Part shown: positions 14,470 through 20,203 of the stretch, piece by piece
How the letters are laid out: each line of letters starts with the position of its first letter
How positions within the stretch are numbered: the first letter of the stretch is position 1
DNA from: a virus
Direction: 5' to 3' (one strand)
IMG/VR virus record: IMGVR_UViG_3300005253_000613
Span: 1-60,685 of that record
Length of the DNA: 60,685 nucleotides
The notes under the pieces: model-generated
Database searches by the model: none
The model's input: the letters and a program-made list of their open reading frames with translations, nothing else
What the model was told of the DNA's origin: nothing
Program-made: the position numbers and the translations under genes

Positions 14470-15099
14470 ATGAGAATTCTAATAGCTTGTGAAGAAAGCC
14501 AAATAGTAACAAAGGAATTTAGAAAGTTAGGGCATGAAGCATATAGTTGTGATTTAATTGAAACTTCAGGCGAACATCCAGATTGGCATATTAAAGGGGA
14601 TGTTTTGACAATATTAAATGATGGTTGGGACATGATGGTTGGATTCCCCCCTTGCACATATTTGAGTTATGCAGGCACGAGGCATTGGGATAATCCCGGG
14701 AGGTTAAGAAAACGATTAGATGCTTTGGAATTCTTTGCCAAATTATGGCTCGCACCTATAAATAAAATATGTTTAGAAAACCCAAGGGGGTGTGCCTCCC
14801 CAACAATTGCGAAATACACACAACTCATAAATCCGTATTATTTCGGGGATAATTATAGCAAACCAACTTGTTTATATTTAAAAAAATTACCGCAATTAAT
14901 ACACCATAATCAAGATGGTTTATTTGACAAAGCAACATGGGTGAGCAAAGGGGAGTTTGTAGAATATAAAAGAAAAGACGGTACGATAAAAAAAGAATCG
15001 AAATGGTTTAGGGAACTGTCCGGCAATGCTAAGGAACTGAGCAAAACATTCCCTGGAATAGCGAAAGTAATGGCTGAGCAATGGGGTGGGAACCTATGA
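14470..15099 (+). CDS. DNA (cytosine-5) methyltransferase-like protein
   Basis: 209 residues. It starts with a motif I-like 'MRILIACEESQIVTKEFRKL', has 'CDLIE' (motif II), 'MMVGFPPCTYLS' with the catalytic Pro-Cys of motif IV near residue 60, and 'ICLENPRG' in place of the ENV motif VI near 100. It is shorter than cellular enzymes and typical of the compact phage family. It may modify phage DNA against restriction; no cognate nuclease is present nearby. Confidence 0.7.
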   Translation: MRILIACEESQIVTKEFRKLGHEAYSCDLIETSGEHPDWHIKGDVLTILNDGWDMMVGFPPCTYLSYAGTRHWDNPGRLRKRLDALEFFAKLWLAPINKICLENPRGCASPTIAKYTQLINPYYFGDNYSKPTCLYLKKLPQLIHHNQDGLFDKATWVSKGEFVEYKRKDGTIKKESKWFRELSGNAKELSKTFPGIAKVMAEQWGGNL

Positions 15100-15938
15100 A
15101 AGATACTTACTGGTTCAAACACGACTCAAACGCTCGTAATGATTTAAAATTAGTCAAGTTAAGACGGTTATCAGGATTGGAAGGAATAGGATTGTTTTGG
15201 TGTGTGATTGAAATGCTTAGAGAATCTGAAAATTATAAATTGCCGTATAAAGAAAAAGAAGATATATGTTTTGATTTAAGAAGCAGTGAAAAGGCTTTCG
15301 ATGATATGTTTGAAGCTGGATTATTACACAAAAAAGACGATATGTTTTTTTCAAATGCATTAAATAATCGAATGGAAAAACTTGATATTCAACGTGAAAA
15401 ATCAAGGGAAGGCGGTATTAAATCTGGTATTTCAAGAAGAGAAAAACCTAAGTTAGGTTCAACCAAAAGCGAAGGCCCTTCAAAGGGTGCTCCAACCACC
15501 CTTGAACCATTAGATAAGATAAGAGTAGATAAGATAAGAGTAGATAAGATAAGAGTAGATAAGATAAGAGTAGATAAGATAAGAGTAGATAAGAATATAA
15601 TACTGTTAAACAAATTACAGCAATATGTTTTAGATACTTTTCCTGCTGTAAAAACCGTAAAAACACAGTTAACAAATGAACAATGTGAAAAGTTATTAAA
15701 AGATTACGGATGGGAGATAGTAATAGAGAAATTAGAGGTTATGGAAAATAGAGATGCCAAACTCAATAATGGCAGGAAATATAAATCAGTTTATTTAACA
15801 ATAAAAGGGTGGTGCAAAGATGGAACAGATAAAAGATATAATCAAACAGGGCAAAATTTTCAAAATAGAAAAGCCGGTAGGAAAAATTCAGCTGAACAGT
15901 TCATCGAAAACGCTAAGGAAAATACAATCCTTAGATAA
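15096..15938 (+). CDS. Replication protein with Lin1244/Lin1753-like (DUF4373) N-terminus
   Basis: 280 residues from the ATG at 15096, which overlaps the methyltransferase stop. The first 90 residues ('YWFKHDSNARNDLKLVKLRR', 'GLEGIGLFWCVIEMLRE') match the Lin1244/Lin1753-like domain that heads many phage replisome-organiser or helicase-loader proteins. A five-fold Asp-Lys-Ile-Arg-Val repeat forms the linker (residues 140-164), followed by a DnaD-like helical C-terminus. It should act at the replication origin with the DnaA-like protein two genes downstream. Confidence 0.7.
   Translation: MKDTYWFKHDSNARNDLKLVKLRRLSGLEGIGLFWCVIEMLRESENYKLPYKEKEDICFDLRSSEKAFDDMFEAGLLHKKDDMFFSNALNNRMEKLDIQREKSREGGIKSGISRREKPKLGSTKSEGPSKGAPTTLEPLDKIRVDKIRVDKIRVDKIRVDKIRVDKNIILLNKLQQYVLDTFPAVKTVKTQLTNEQCEKLLKDYGWEIVIEKLEVMENRDAKLNNGRKYKSVYLTIKGWCKDGTDKRYNQTGQNFQNRKAGRKNSAEQFIENAKENTILR
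15513..15587 (+). repeat. Five tandem 15-bp repeats in the replication gene
   Basis: The unit GATAAGATAAGAGTA is repeated five times without change, encoding Asp-Lys-Ile-Arg-Val each time. Being a multiple of 3, copy-number changes keep the frame, so the linker length can vary. The repeats could also serve as iterons for origin binding. Confidence 0.9.
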
Positions 15939-18389: not shown

Positions 18390-18451
18390 GGCTACTGTTG
18401 GCACTTAGGAAGTGATCGTCCTAACTCAGGTTCAAATCCTGTCAGTAGCCC
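18390..18451 (+). tRNA. D-arm-less tRNA-like element (A), possibly His(GTG)-like
   Basis: Acceptor arms GCTACTG (18391-18397) and CAGTAGC (18443-18449) pair perfectly, and G18390 pairs with C18450, the G-1:C73 feature of tRNA-His. The T arm is canonical (GGTTCAAATCC at 18429-18439). Between them is a single 6-bp stem TTAGGA/TCCTAA with the loop AGTGATCG, which contains GTG. There is no D arm: only about 7 nt link acceptor and anticodon stem. It is either a minimal tRNA or a degenerate one. Confidence 0.4.
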
Positions 18452-18488
18452 AAAAATAAATGTTTGTTCTTTAATTATAGGAGTTAAT

Positions 18489-18632
18489 ATGGATGTCTTT
18501 GAAAAAGCAGAATTGTATGATAAAATTGATGAAGATGATGAAATGACCGATAAGGAAAAGCGGGATGCTTATCGTTCAGAAATAGCCTGGGAAGAACAGC
18601 AAGAAGAAGAATGGGAAAACGATTATCAATAG
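18489..18632 (+). CDS. Small acidic protein between tRNA-like elements
   Basis: 47 residues, strongly acidic (Glu/Asp runs), with ATAGGAGTT just upstream of the start. It lies between tRNA-like elements A and B. Negative charge over the whole length could mimic DNA or RNA, but this is speculation. Confidence 0.55.
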   Translation: MDVFEKAELYDKIDEDDEMTDKEKRDAYRSEIAWEEQQEEEWENDYQ

Positions 18633-18644
18633 TTCTTTAACATA

Positions 18645-18848
18645 GGGACGGTGGCGGAATAGGTAGGCGCGTGACAAGTTATGTGGTGGAAAGTCAATTA
18701 ATCCGATTCAGTGTGCCAATAGAAATAGAGAAGAGGCAGGATCAAACACTGATGCAACATTCACATAATATGCAAGGTGACTTAATAATAAGGTTGGATT
18801 AACGGTATACACTGCTTCTGGCCGGCTTATCAAATCCTTGCCCGTCCC
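18645..18848 (+). ncRNA. Expanded tRNA-like element (B), Leu-type D arm
   Basis: GGGACGG (18645-18651) pairs perfectly with CCGTCCC (18842-18848). U8 and a Leu-type D arm follow (stem GCG/CGC, loop with GG at 18662-18663). The T stem GCAAGG (18772-18777) pairs with CCTTGC (18836-18841), but the loop is about 58 nt instead of 7. Removing about 51 nt would restore TTCAAAT. The middle part (18672-18771) holds further stems, for example CAGTGT/ACACTG. Total 204 nt against about 85 for a normal tRNA-Leu. Confidence 0.4.
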
Positions 18849-18873
18849 TTTAAATTTTAGTTCTTTTTAAAAT

Positions 18874-19002
18874 CATGCAATGGTTATGACAACAACCAAG
18901 GTAAGCGTTAAGAACCGGTAGCGTGAATTCGCTCCCGGGGGGGGATCTCTGATTTGTCTATATGAGATCGAAGGCACGGGGTGGGGAATCCCGTTTGCGT
19001 GA
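18874..19002 (+). ncRNA. Expanded tRNA-like element (C)
   Basis: CATGCAA (18874-18880) pairs with TTGCGTG (18995-19001), and the pairing extends outward to 11 bp. U8 and a possible D arm GGTT/AACC follow. The T stem ACGGG/CCCGT abuts the acceptor, but its loop is GTGGGGAAT, not TTCGAAT. Between lie two strong hairpins: CCGG/AGCG with CGCT/CCGG (18915-18938), and GATCTC/GAGATC (18944-18969). 129 nt. The anticodon arm cannot be assigned. Confidence 0.35.
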
Positions 19003-19030
19003 TTTTAATTTATAGGGGCGGTGGTTAATT

Positions 19031-19495
19031 ATGGAAAATTTATTGGGGCAGAAATTATTTACACTCAATGGTGAGAATTTAATAATTAGGTTTAACAGAG
19101 AATTGTTAGAAGTATTTACCAACATGAGATCGCATCCAAATACATTTAGCAGGTGTTGGTTTTCAACATATCCTTATAGAAGATTGGGTGAGAATTTAAT
19201 TTACGCCAAAAATCATTTTAATATAAAGTTTGCAGCCGGATCATCAACTTTGTGGATAAGAGCAAATGTTAAATATGATGCTAAAATTGGCGGTTGGTGG
19301 TATGATGTAAGTGAATGGTATAGTTTGCATGATGGGAGAGAGTACAATAAGAATATGACGATTAATGATTTGCTGACAATATTTAAACGACATAAAATAG
19401 ACACAAAAATAGATTTTAACAGAGGGACGGTGGAAACACTGACAGAGCTTAAGGGCAACCACTATACACGAAATGGCTATAACATGCCTCCGTAG
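19031..19495 (+). CDS. Uncharacterised protein embedded in the tRNA-like cluster
   Basis: 154 residues, soluble, beta-rich in look ('STLWIRANVKYDAKIGGWWY'). No family recognised and no homing-endonuclease motif visible. GGGGCGGTGG just upstream serves as a poor ribosome-binding site. Its 3' end overlaps a further possible acceptor pair (GGGACGG at 19424, CCGTTCC at 19554-19560). Confidence 0.5.
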   Translation: MENLLGQKLFTLNGENLIIRFNRELLEVFTNMRSHPNTFSRCWFSTYPYRRLGENLIYAKNHFNIKFAAGSSTLWIRANVKYDAKIGGWWYDVSEWYSLHDGREYNKNMTINDLLTIFKRHKIDTKIDFNRGTVETLTELKGNHYTRNGYNMPP

Positions 19496-19567
19496 CTGAG
19501 GAAAGGCAATCGAATAGCGATCGAGGGAGTGTATAACTGGAGTCAGGCAAGCCCCGTTCCTTTTAAC

Positions 19568-19642
19568 ACGCTCTTAGCTCAGATGGTTAGCAGCACTTGC
19601 CTTTTAAGCAAGGGGTCGTTGGTTCAAATCCAGCAGGGCGTA
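19568..19642 (+). tRNA. tRNA-Lys (anticodon TTT)
   Basis: 75 nt. Acceptor ACGCTCT/AGGGCGT (7 bp with one G-T), D arm TTAGCTCAGATGGTTAGCAG, anticodon stem CTTGC/GCAAG with loop CTTTTAA, T arm GTTGGTTCAAATCCAGC, discriminator A. CCA is not fully encoded (CAA follows). UUU reads AAA/AAG, fitting the Lys-rich, AT-rich phage genes. It is the only regular tRNA in the cluster. Confidence 0.9.
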
Positions 19643-19645
19643 CAA

Positions 19646-19872
19646 TTTAGTTCTTAAATATCCCAAGCGGTGGCTGAACGATGAAGGCAATACTGCAAAA
19701 GGTTGGTTGAAAACCTTATAAAACTAAGCATACTGGGTAACTTATTTATAGGTGAGGAAGCTGAGTAAATCTTTTCCGGTTTAGATTAACAACAAACCGT
19801 TGCAGGTAGGTATGATTGAAAGACGTTTTAATTATAAATCCTGTTCGCTTGGGGTGTTATTTAGTTCTTAAA
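19646..19872 (+). repeat. Spacer repeat TTTAGTTCTTAAA flanking element D
   Basis: The identical 13-mer TTTAGTTCTTAAA occurs at 19646-19658 and 19860-19872. Close variants lie at 18463 (TTTGTTCTTTAA), 18630 (TAGTTCTTTAA) and 18856 (TTTAGTTCTTTTTAA), each between two RNA elements or between an element and a gene. They could be processing or promoter signals, or traces of how the units were duplicated. Confidence 0.7.
19662..19853 (+). ncRNA. Expanded tRNA-like element (D), Ser/Leu-type D arm
   Basis: CAAGCGG (19664-19670) pairs with TCGCTTG (19845-19851), extended outward by two C-G pairs. U8 and a short D stem GCT/GGC follow, with the TGGCTGAA look of a Ser/Leu tRNA. The T stem GCAGG (19802-19806) pairs with CCTGT (19840-19844), but the loop is 33 nt. 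The middle holds hairpins AAGGTT/AACCTT and CGGTTT/AAACCG. About 190 nt. Anticodon unclear. Confidence 0.35.
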
Positions 19873-19897: not shown

Positions 19898-20203
19898 ATG
19901 AATGAAGACATTGAGAGGCTTATAAGTCCATTTAATTTAAAAGAATTACAGTATATACTTTGGAAAGTTGAATTAGTTACAATAAAAGAAGACTTTTGGA
20001 ACATAATGAATAATCATTTTCCGGGGGAATATGATAAACATGATAAAAAAGCATTTTTCGATAAATATGCCGGTAGAGACACGCATGTTCAAGAATGGTG
20101 TGGTGATTGGTGGATTTGCGAAGATGACAGTCACCCTATCACAAAAGAATGCTTTATGGTAATAAATAGATATAGCCCGAATTTAATTAACAAGAAGAGT
20201 TGA
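19898..20203 (+). CDS. Uncharacterised protein
   Basis: 101 residues, soluble, with a Trp-rich 'HVQEWCGDWWICEDD' segment. First gene after the RNA-rich segment. No family recognised. Confidence 0.5.
   Translation: MNEDIERLISPFNLKELQYILWKVELVTIKEDFWNIMNNHFPGEYDKHDKKAFFDKYAGRDTHVQEWCGDWWICEDDSHPITKECFMVINRYSPNLINKKS

Follow-up and report, generated by a model that had tools for sequence, protein, structure and literature searches.

We analyzed a cluster of tRNA-like elements in the virus record IMGVR_UViG_3300005253_000613 of IMG/VR, a stretch of 60,685 bases that is referred to as a whole as the window. The window carries a tailed-phage gene set, including a P22-like portal protein, an SU10-like capsid protein, a terminase, an integrase and a lysozyme. 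Between 18.39 and 19.85 kb, several units that are seen by neither ARAGORN nor Rfam lie beside a normal tRNA-Lys(UUU) gene, which both recover and which is the sole intact tRNA of the window. An initial annotation, made from the letters alone, had described this cluster as one tRNA-Lys and at least three longer units (B, C and D) with tRNA-like ends and expanded interiors, and had proposed that the latter were a new class of RNAs, intron-bearing tRNAs or decayed tRNAs. Its observation is confirmed by our analysis and its interpretation is partly supported: the reading as a new class gained support, and the class proved to be widespread.

tRNA-like units in the window

Unit B has exactly the length first ascribed to it. 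Its acceptor (GGGACGG/CCGTCCC) is paired at 7 of 7 positions, it carries A14, A15 and U48, and its 5′ end aligns over 26 nt with annotated phage tRNA-Leu genes in a blastn search. Expanded interiors do take the place of the anticodon arm, which is missing beside the D arm in both B and D, and one correction applies: in both units, an insert also lies inside the T loop. In B, this insert is closed by a stem of ATAAG (18788-18792) and CTTAT (18826-18830). B combines all features of the relatives that we describe below as type III, namely a covarying acceptor, a Leu-type D arm, U48, a 6-bp T stem, a hairpin between U54 and U55, and a helix, S2, at an offset of 2 nt from the T stem. Unit D, for which about 190 nt had been estimated, likewise has a fully paired acceptor (CAAGCGG/TCGCTTG, 7/7), with U8, A14, A15, a D stem and U48.

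That B and D exceed chance is indicated by a composite rule, consisting of an acceptor, U8, A14/A15, a D stem, U48, an adjacent T stem and a helix ending 2 nt 5′ of the T stem. Applied to both strands of the 60.7 kb, the rule returned B and D only, while shuffled windows gave a mean of 0.5 per strand. The fold z-scores (Table 1) come from a program that handles no pseudoknots, and B reached only −1.0; any doubt still attaching to B is dispelled by its relatives. We consider B to be almost certainly a member of a class of anticodon-arm-less tRNA-like RNAs, and D a probable one. Among the units of the window, sequence relatives were found for B and not for D, C, E or A.

The other units, of which A and E had not been itemized in the initial annotation, are more doubtful. 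The fully paired acceptor and the adjacent T stem are present in B, C and D alike, and U8 and the D arm in B and D. In C, the acceptor (CATGCAA/TTGCGTG, 7/7) is extended by AAAAT/ATTTT and the T stem reads ACGGG/CCCGT, and it is a weaker member because A14 is absent and the T loop is a non-canonical 9-nt loop, GTGGGGAAT. Unit E repeats the acceptor of B as GGGACGG/CCGTTCC, has no clear T arm, and overlaps with its start an open reading frame (ORF; 19031-19495). Unit A has an acceptor of GCTACTG/CAGTAGC, extended by G18390:C18450, and a canonical T arm and loop, and lacks a D arm. We regard the membership of C, E and A as tentative, ranging from doubtful to evenly balanced.

Table 1. Positions of the tRNA-like cluster and its parts within the window
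Feature	Position	Length (nt)	Strand	Basis or remark
Unit A, tRNA-like stub	18391-18449	59	+	Fold z −2.3
Unit B, tRNA-like RNA, T-loop-insert type (type III)	18645-18848	204	+	About 30 relatives of the same architecture; fold z −1.0
B, U8 and D arm, TGGCGGAATAGGTAGGCGC	18652-18670		+	tRNA-Leu-type; near-invariant among relatives
B, helix S2, 5′ strand, GTTATGTG	18678-18685		+	Pairs with 18762-18769
B, helix S2, 3′ strand, CACATAAT	18762-18769		+	Ends exactly 2 nt 5′ of the T stem
B, T arm, 6-bp stem GCAAGG/CCTTGC, enlarged loop	18772-18841 (stem 18772-18777, 18836-18841)		+	Stem abuts the acceptor
B, T-loop insert, U54/U55	18779-18829	51	+	Same position in relatives
Unit C, doubtful member	18874-19001	128	+	Fold z −3.6; two internal hairpins
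Unit E, doubtful member	19424-19560	137	+	Rod-like fold, z −3.4
tRNA-Lys(UUU), normal	19568-19643		+	ARAGORN; Rfam RF00005, 58.7 bits
Unit D, tRNA-like, Ser-like D arm, own T-loop hairpin insert	19664-19851	188	+	Composite rule; fold z −2.8
D, helix S2, CGGTTT/AAACCG	19777-19799		+	3′ strand ends 2 nt 5′ of the T stem, as in the class rule
D, T arm GCAGG/CCTGT, hairpin inserted after U54	19802-19844		+	Adjoins the acceptor; sequence, RNAfold hairpin

Database searches from the window itself, in collections that exclude records very near to it, yielded little: a DNA search with the entire cluster as query recovered the tRNA-Lys alone, Rfam gave no relevant match for B and D submitted separately, no viral relatives were found for the neighbouring ORF (19898-20203) and the terminase, and the relatives of an adjoining recombination-type protein lacked a comparable cluster. 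A spacer motif, TAGTTCTT, stands beside units at 18629, 18857, 19647 and 19861; in the form [TA]TAGTTCTT, 4 of its 6 plus-strand copies in the 60.7 kb fall within this 1.2 kb, and it is possibly a promoter or processing signal. Elsewhere in the window, an ORF with a Lin1244-type N-terminal domain (15081-15938) contains the sequence KIRVD five times in tandem.

A class of viral RNAs with three T-arm types

We scanned IMG/VR for stretches in which a T-loop motif lies farther downstream of a B-type D arm than in tRNAs, and obtained at least 120. Most of these are units of 103-183 nt in which no tRNA is called, with perfect 7-bp acceptors of many sequences, a near-invariant D arm, differing interiors and a T arm of RCAGG-TTCRAAT-CCTGY. 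A general detector run on the collected loci gave 131 matches, and none in reversed and complemented controls; in the broader inventory, 131 units uncalled by ARAGORN stand against 180 that are called. All pattern scans favour D arms of the tRNA-Leu type, so that these abundances are lower bounds and other D-arm types are under-sampled. The units are mostly co-oriented with neighbouring genes, and a search for a constant neighbour or partner protein found only general phage genes (YopX, YqaJ, HNH, helicase).

Three types can be distinguished by the T arm. In type I, the T stem is 5 bp and the loop is canonical. The Firmicutes type has a 6-bp T stem and a UGCAAAU loop, and was seen, after a further scan, in 126 records; nearly always without annotation, it occurs in SPP1 (between genes 9 and 11), phi3T, and phages of Listeria, Lactobacillus, Lacticaseibacillus, Latilactobacillus, Weissella, Leuconostoc, Brochothrix and Enterococcus. 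Type III, which includes B, combines a 6-bp T stem with a hairpin between U54 and U55, and its loop consensus is U-GACUAUACGAG...CUCG-UCAAAU; it is found in about 30 viral contigs, from a scan that gave 59 stretches and 35 complete copies, some of which duplicate one locus. The strict type III motif was found 0 times in 380 genomes from the phylum of a Peregrinibacteria bin. Removal of the U54/U55 insert leaves a perfect UUCAAAU loop, and the closing stem of the insert covaries among relatives (ACGAG/CTCGT, ACTCT/AGAGT, ACAGG/CCTGT, ACTAG/CTAGT, and ATAAG/CTTAT in B).

Some further features were noted beside Firmicutes-type units. The SPP1 unit (L251:2494-2700, X89721) is followed by a stub of about 45 nt, ACGGAC...GCGGGTTCAATTCCCGGAGTCCGT, with an acceptor-like stem and T arm only (compare unit A of the window). 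A DUF3800-VIII RNA lies near the phi3T unit (L252:2857-2922), and rliG and mcrA lie near a unit of a Listeria phage (L253:1337-1823). The Firmicutes units were also tested for identity with the Listeria RNA rli28, which did not hold.

Compensatory changes in relatives, whose absence had been named in the initial annotation as refuting its proposal, were found, and the acceptor and T stems covary strongly. We selected units without regard to pairing, and as a control exchanged strands between units. In type III, where selection rested on the T-loop motif and the D-arm anchor, 29 of 36 acceptors are fully paired (mean 6.5 of 7), compared with 1.5% after swapping; B was counted among the misses because the automatic anchor landed on an inner TGGTGGAAA. 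Full pairing was likewise found for type I acceptors (47/66, against 3% swapped) and Firmicutes-type acceptors (98/120, against 3.3%), and the Firmicutes-type T stem, with 28 distinct stems, is full in 109 of 120 units against 28% swapped. Base 48 is U in 120 of 120 Firmicutes-type units, even though it lies outside the search pattern. In a 23-row alignment, the pair score was 0.516 (0.135 when shuffled), all four helices vary on both sides, and shifting the partner strand abolishes pairing; in this alignment, 3 nt of B were omitted for the register of the insert stem and most rows had been found via a paired acceptor, which leaves the swap tests unaffected.

These results contradict the earlier suggestion of decayed tRNAs. 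That the units are tRNA genes in decay, or inverted repeats that arose by chance, as the imperfect units C, E and A and a broken acceptor at locus L102 might be taken to indicate, has next to no probability given the covariation, the constant U48, the zero matches in controls and a type III insert motif kept in about 30 contigs, and for B it is already contradicted. We conclude with near certainty that a large class of viral anticodon-arm-less tRNA-like RNAs exists, marked by a freely covarying 7-bp acceptor, U8, a near-invariant tRNA-Leu-type D arm, A14, A15/U48, G18G19, the contact bases of the T loop and a T arm abutting the acceptor, with its stem stacked on it. These are the elements from which the upper half and the elbow of a tRNA are built.

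The proposal of intron-bearing tRNAs, in which interior and T-loop insert would be spliced out to leave working tRNAs, found no support for the main class. A canonical anticodon arm (5 bp, 7-nt loop, U33) follows the D arm in 0 of 131 units, as opposed to 128 of 180 tRNAs, some interiors measure no more than about 27 nt (L199), Rfam shows no intron family, and phage T4 rnaC, discussed below, is annotated as a 139-nt unspliced RNA. We hold this explanation to be highly improbable for the class, even with the perfect loop left by removing the type III insert and with five loci (L047, L081, L133, L150 and L157) that resemble tRNAs with an anticodon-loop insert.

These five loci differ in appearance from the class and are best treated separately. 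Two of them (L047:7682-8241 and L081:53-628) contain several tRNAs with short anticodon-loop inserts, two with CCCTTAAATGGG, which are viral and resemble archaeal-type tRNA introns. Three tRNA-like genes at L150:3106-3581 and L157:5390-5911 (Trichormus, Nostoc) differ in their acceptors but resemble each other in an insert about 50 nt long, CCTTATTC ... GCCTGMAAAGGC ... GAATGAGG, in which a pairing stem varies; the insert looks like a small intron-like element. A further insert (L133:1505-1973 and L120) is common to three tRNA-like genes of a single viral contig; it includes a conserved stretch resembling GTCATGAGCCTACAAGC and may be a small intron-like element of the anticodon loop.

Interiors and possible function

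The interiors, which stand in place of the anticodon and variable arms, range from 27 to about 150 nt, and no common sequence was found among those of different units. A 6-bp helix S2 with its 3′ strand ending precisely 2 nt short of the T stem is present in 39% of type I, 30% of type III and 45-54% of Firmicutes-type units, as against 6-7% in shuffles; its position peaks at, or next to, offset 2, and an earlier helix, S1, often crosses S2 to give a pseudoknot. Some interiors recur: pairs that are 84-100% identical lie in phages between which the flanks, compared over up to 2.5 kb per side, do not align. We traced two interiors through IMG/VR, to 39 and 14 contigs, and found tRNA-like ends around them wherever the contig was complete; the exceptions are a copy at L273 that lacks the 5′ end and a few copies with a damaged acceptor, such as that at L102. 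In one of the traced families, S2 varies in a compensatory manner (GTCAAC/GTTGAC, ACCAAC/GTTGGT, AATAAC/GTTATT) around a constant core. One phage fragment (L079) contains about 11 units in 5 kb, with a common acceptor (AGTCAGG), small ORFs between them and mostly different interiors.

The constant parts of the units are those recognized by RNase P, tRNase Z and elbow-binding proteins. Because these parts fit such enzymes, and because the units are co-oriented with their neighbours, we infer that a unit would be transcribed as part of a phage operon and excised by host RNase P and tRNase Z, possibly with addition of CCA, to give a stable RNA of about 80-250 nt. Such an RNA would be unable to decode, since it has no anticodon. 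The tRNA shell would then serve as a chassis for maturation and stability, and the interior, with the T-loop hairpin where present, as a payload whose structure would act on a target belonging to the host, a defence system or a competitor; that interiors recur as units favours this division of roles. On the available sequences, we lean towards this reading for B, probably D, and the class. In a wider form, which we offer only tentatively, phages of Bacteroidota, Firmicutes and other hosts would share the use of a natural tRNA scaffold: structured RNA effectors directed at host or defence functions would be exchanged as cassettes within a chassis that lacks an anticodon and is processed like a tRNA, and one genome could carry an array of up to about a dozen.

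Several points weigh against a chassis with a payload. The enrichment of pseudoknot topology is only moderate (52% versus 32%). The longest antisense matches of interiors to their own contig are no longer than those of shuffled interiors. That interiors recur might be due to whole units having been transferred recently, and not to selection acting on the interior. The class is described here from sequence, and production as an RNA is documented only for its T4 analogue, rnaC. Position 73 also bears on the matter: A73, a requirement for leucine charging, is found in 70 of 84 type I units, and is weak in the Firmicutes type (62/120) and type III (18/36), with U in B and G in D. From their sequence, charging of the canonical type I units with leucine is possible, as A15, U48 and A73 hint, and less so for the other types.

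Alternatively, the shell could be the active part, as a decoy or sponge for a tRNA-binding enzyme such as leucyl-tRNA synthetase, EF-Tu or a tRNA-cleaving defence nuclease, with the interior as a knot that blocks decoding. The D arm sequence, A15 and U48 are indeed far more constant than the interior, type I has a tRNA-Leu-like identity set that includes A73, phage tRNAs are known to counteract tRNA-cleaving defences (PMC13096335), and the only intact tRNA of the window is a tRNA-Lys(UUU). We nevertheless rate a decoy as unlikely: interiors that remain 84-100% identical despite unrelated flanks are unexpected for neutral filler, a single array (L079) holds about 11 mostly different ones, and the anticodon or variable loop, where many tRNA nucleases cut, is missing from the units in both cases.

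The interleaving of units with small ORFs on the same strand, and their location in several Firmicutes phages, with ArpU-like regulators on one side and terminase genes on the other, would also suit a role as punctuation, in which RNase P and tRNase Z sites cut a polycistronic phage mRNA between small genes, as mitochondrial tRNAs do. Punctuation would require neither so constant a D arm nor recurring interiors nor T-loop hairpins, and we find it improbable.

Comparison with known systems

The units resemble tRNA-Leu (RF00005) in acceptor, U8, D arm, A15/U48 and T arm, and many exceed the Rfam tRNA gathering cut-off, with a large insertion; Rfam 15 otherwise gives nothing. They differ in having no anticodon arm, an interior of other origin and no ARAGORN tRNA call. 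Measured against a canonical tRNA, they have its acceptor, U8, D arm and T arm and lack its anticodon arm. With transfer-messenger RNA (tmRNA), they share tRNA-like ends around a pseudoknotted RNA, but they are 80-250 nt long, have a full D stem, and match neither the tmRNA nor the permuted tmRNA model. In Enterococcus phage phiSHEF16 (L248:1144-1494), a tmRNA (130 bits) lies directly upstream of a unit, inside a tRNA cluster. Group I introns gave no Rfam match in the units examined. C4 RNA of P1/P7 and the P4 CI RNA are phage regulatory RNAs processed by RNase P, and so offer a parallel of RNAs cut out by a tRNA-processing enzyme; unlike the units, however, they have no tRNA-like D and T arms, and the units have no antisense match to their own contig.

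The nearest known RNA is T4 species 1 RNA (rnaC, 139 nt, NC_000866 71046-70908), which is produced as a late RNA according to Northern blots (PMC9697503). Like the units, it is a stable RNA in a phage tRNA cluster with an expanded interior and a hairpin just 5′ of the T arm, its canonical T arm (CCGGG-TTCGAAT-CCCGG) adjoins a 7-nt acceptor strand, and its acceptor and T stem show compensatory changes in relatives from Enterobacter and Erwinia phages. It differs in two U-U acceptor mismatches, the lack of a tRNA-Leu-type D arm, a single conserved interior and its occurrence in T4-like phages. The architecture is thus held in common while D arm and interior differ, and we liken the two by architecture rather than by sequence homology. 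The combination of features seen in the class is absent from Rfam and from the RNA families familiar to us, and the open-access literature (bioRxiv not covered) yielded rnaC and no description of the class.

If our reading is correct, a large class of non-coding RNAs has been overlooked by tRNA finders or filed as undetermined tRNAs. Since unannotated units are present in tractable phages, such as SPP1, phi3T and phages of Listeria, Enterococcus and Lactobacillus, the idea is directly testable. It would offer a concrete approach to long-known stable phage RNAs, T4 species 1 RNA among them, and would be nature's parallel to the tRNA scaffolds used for laboratory RNA production. Should rnaC turn out to be related, the class would be new and its first member 50 years old.
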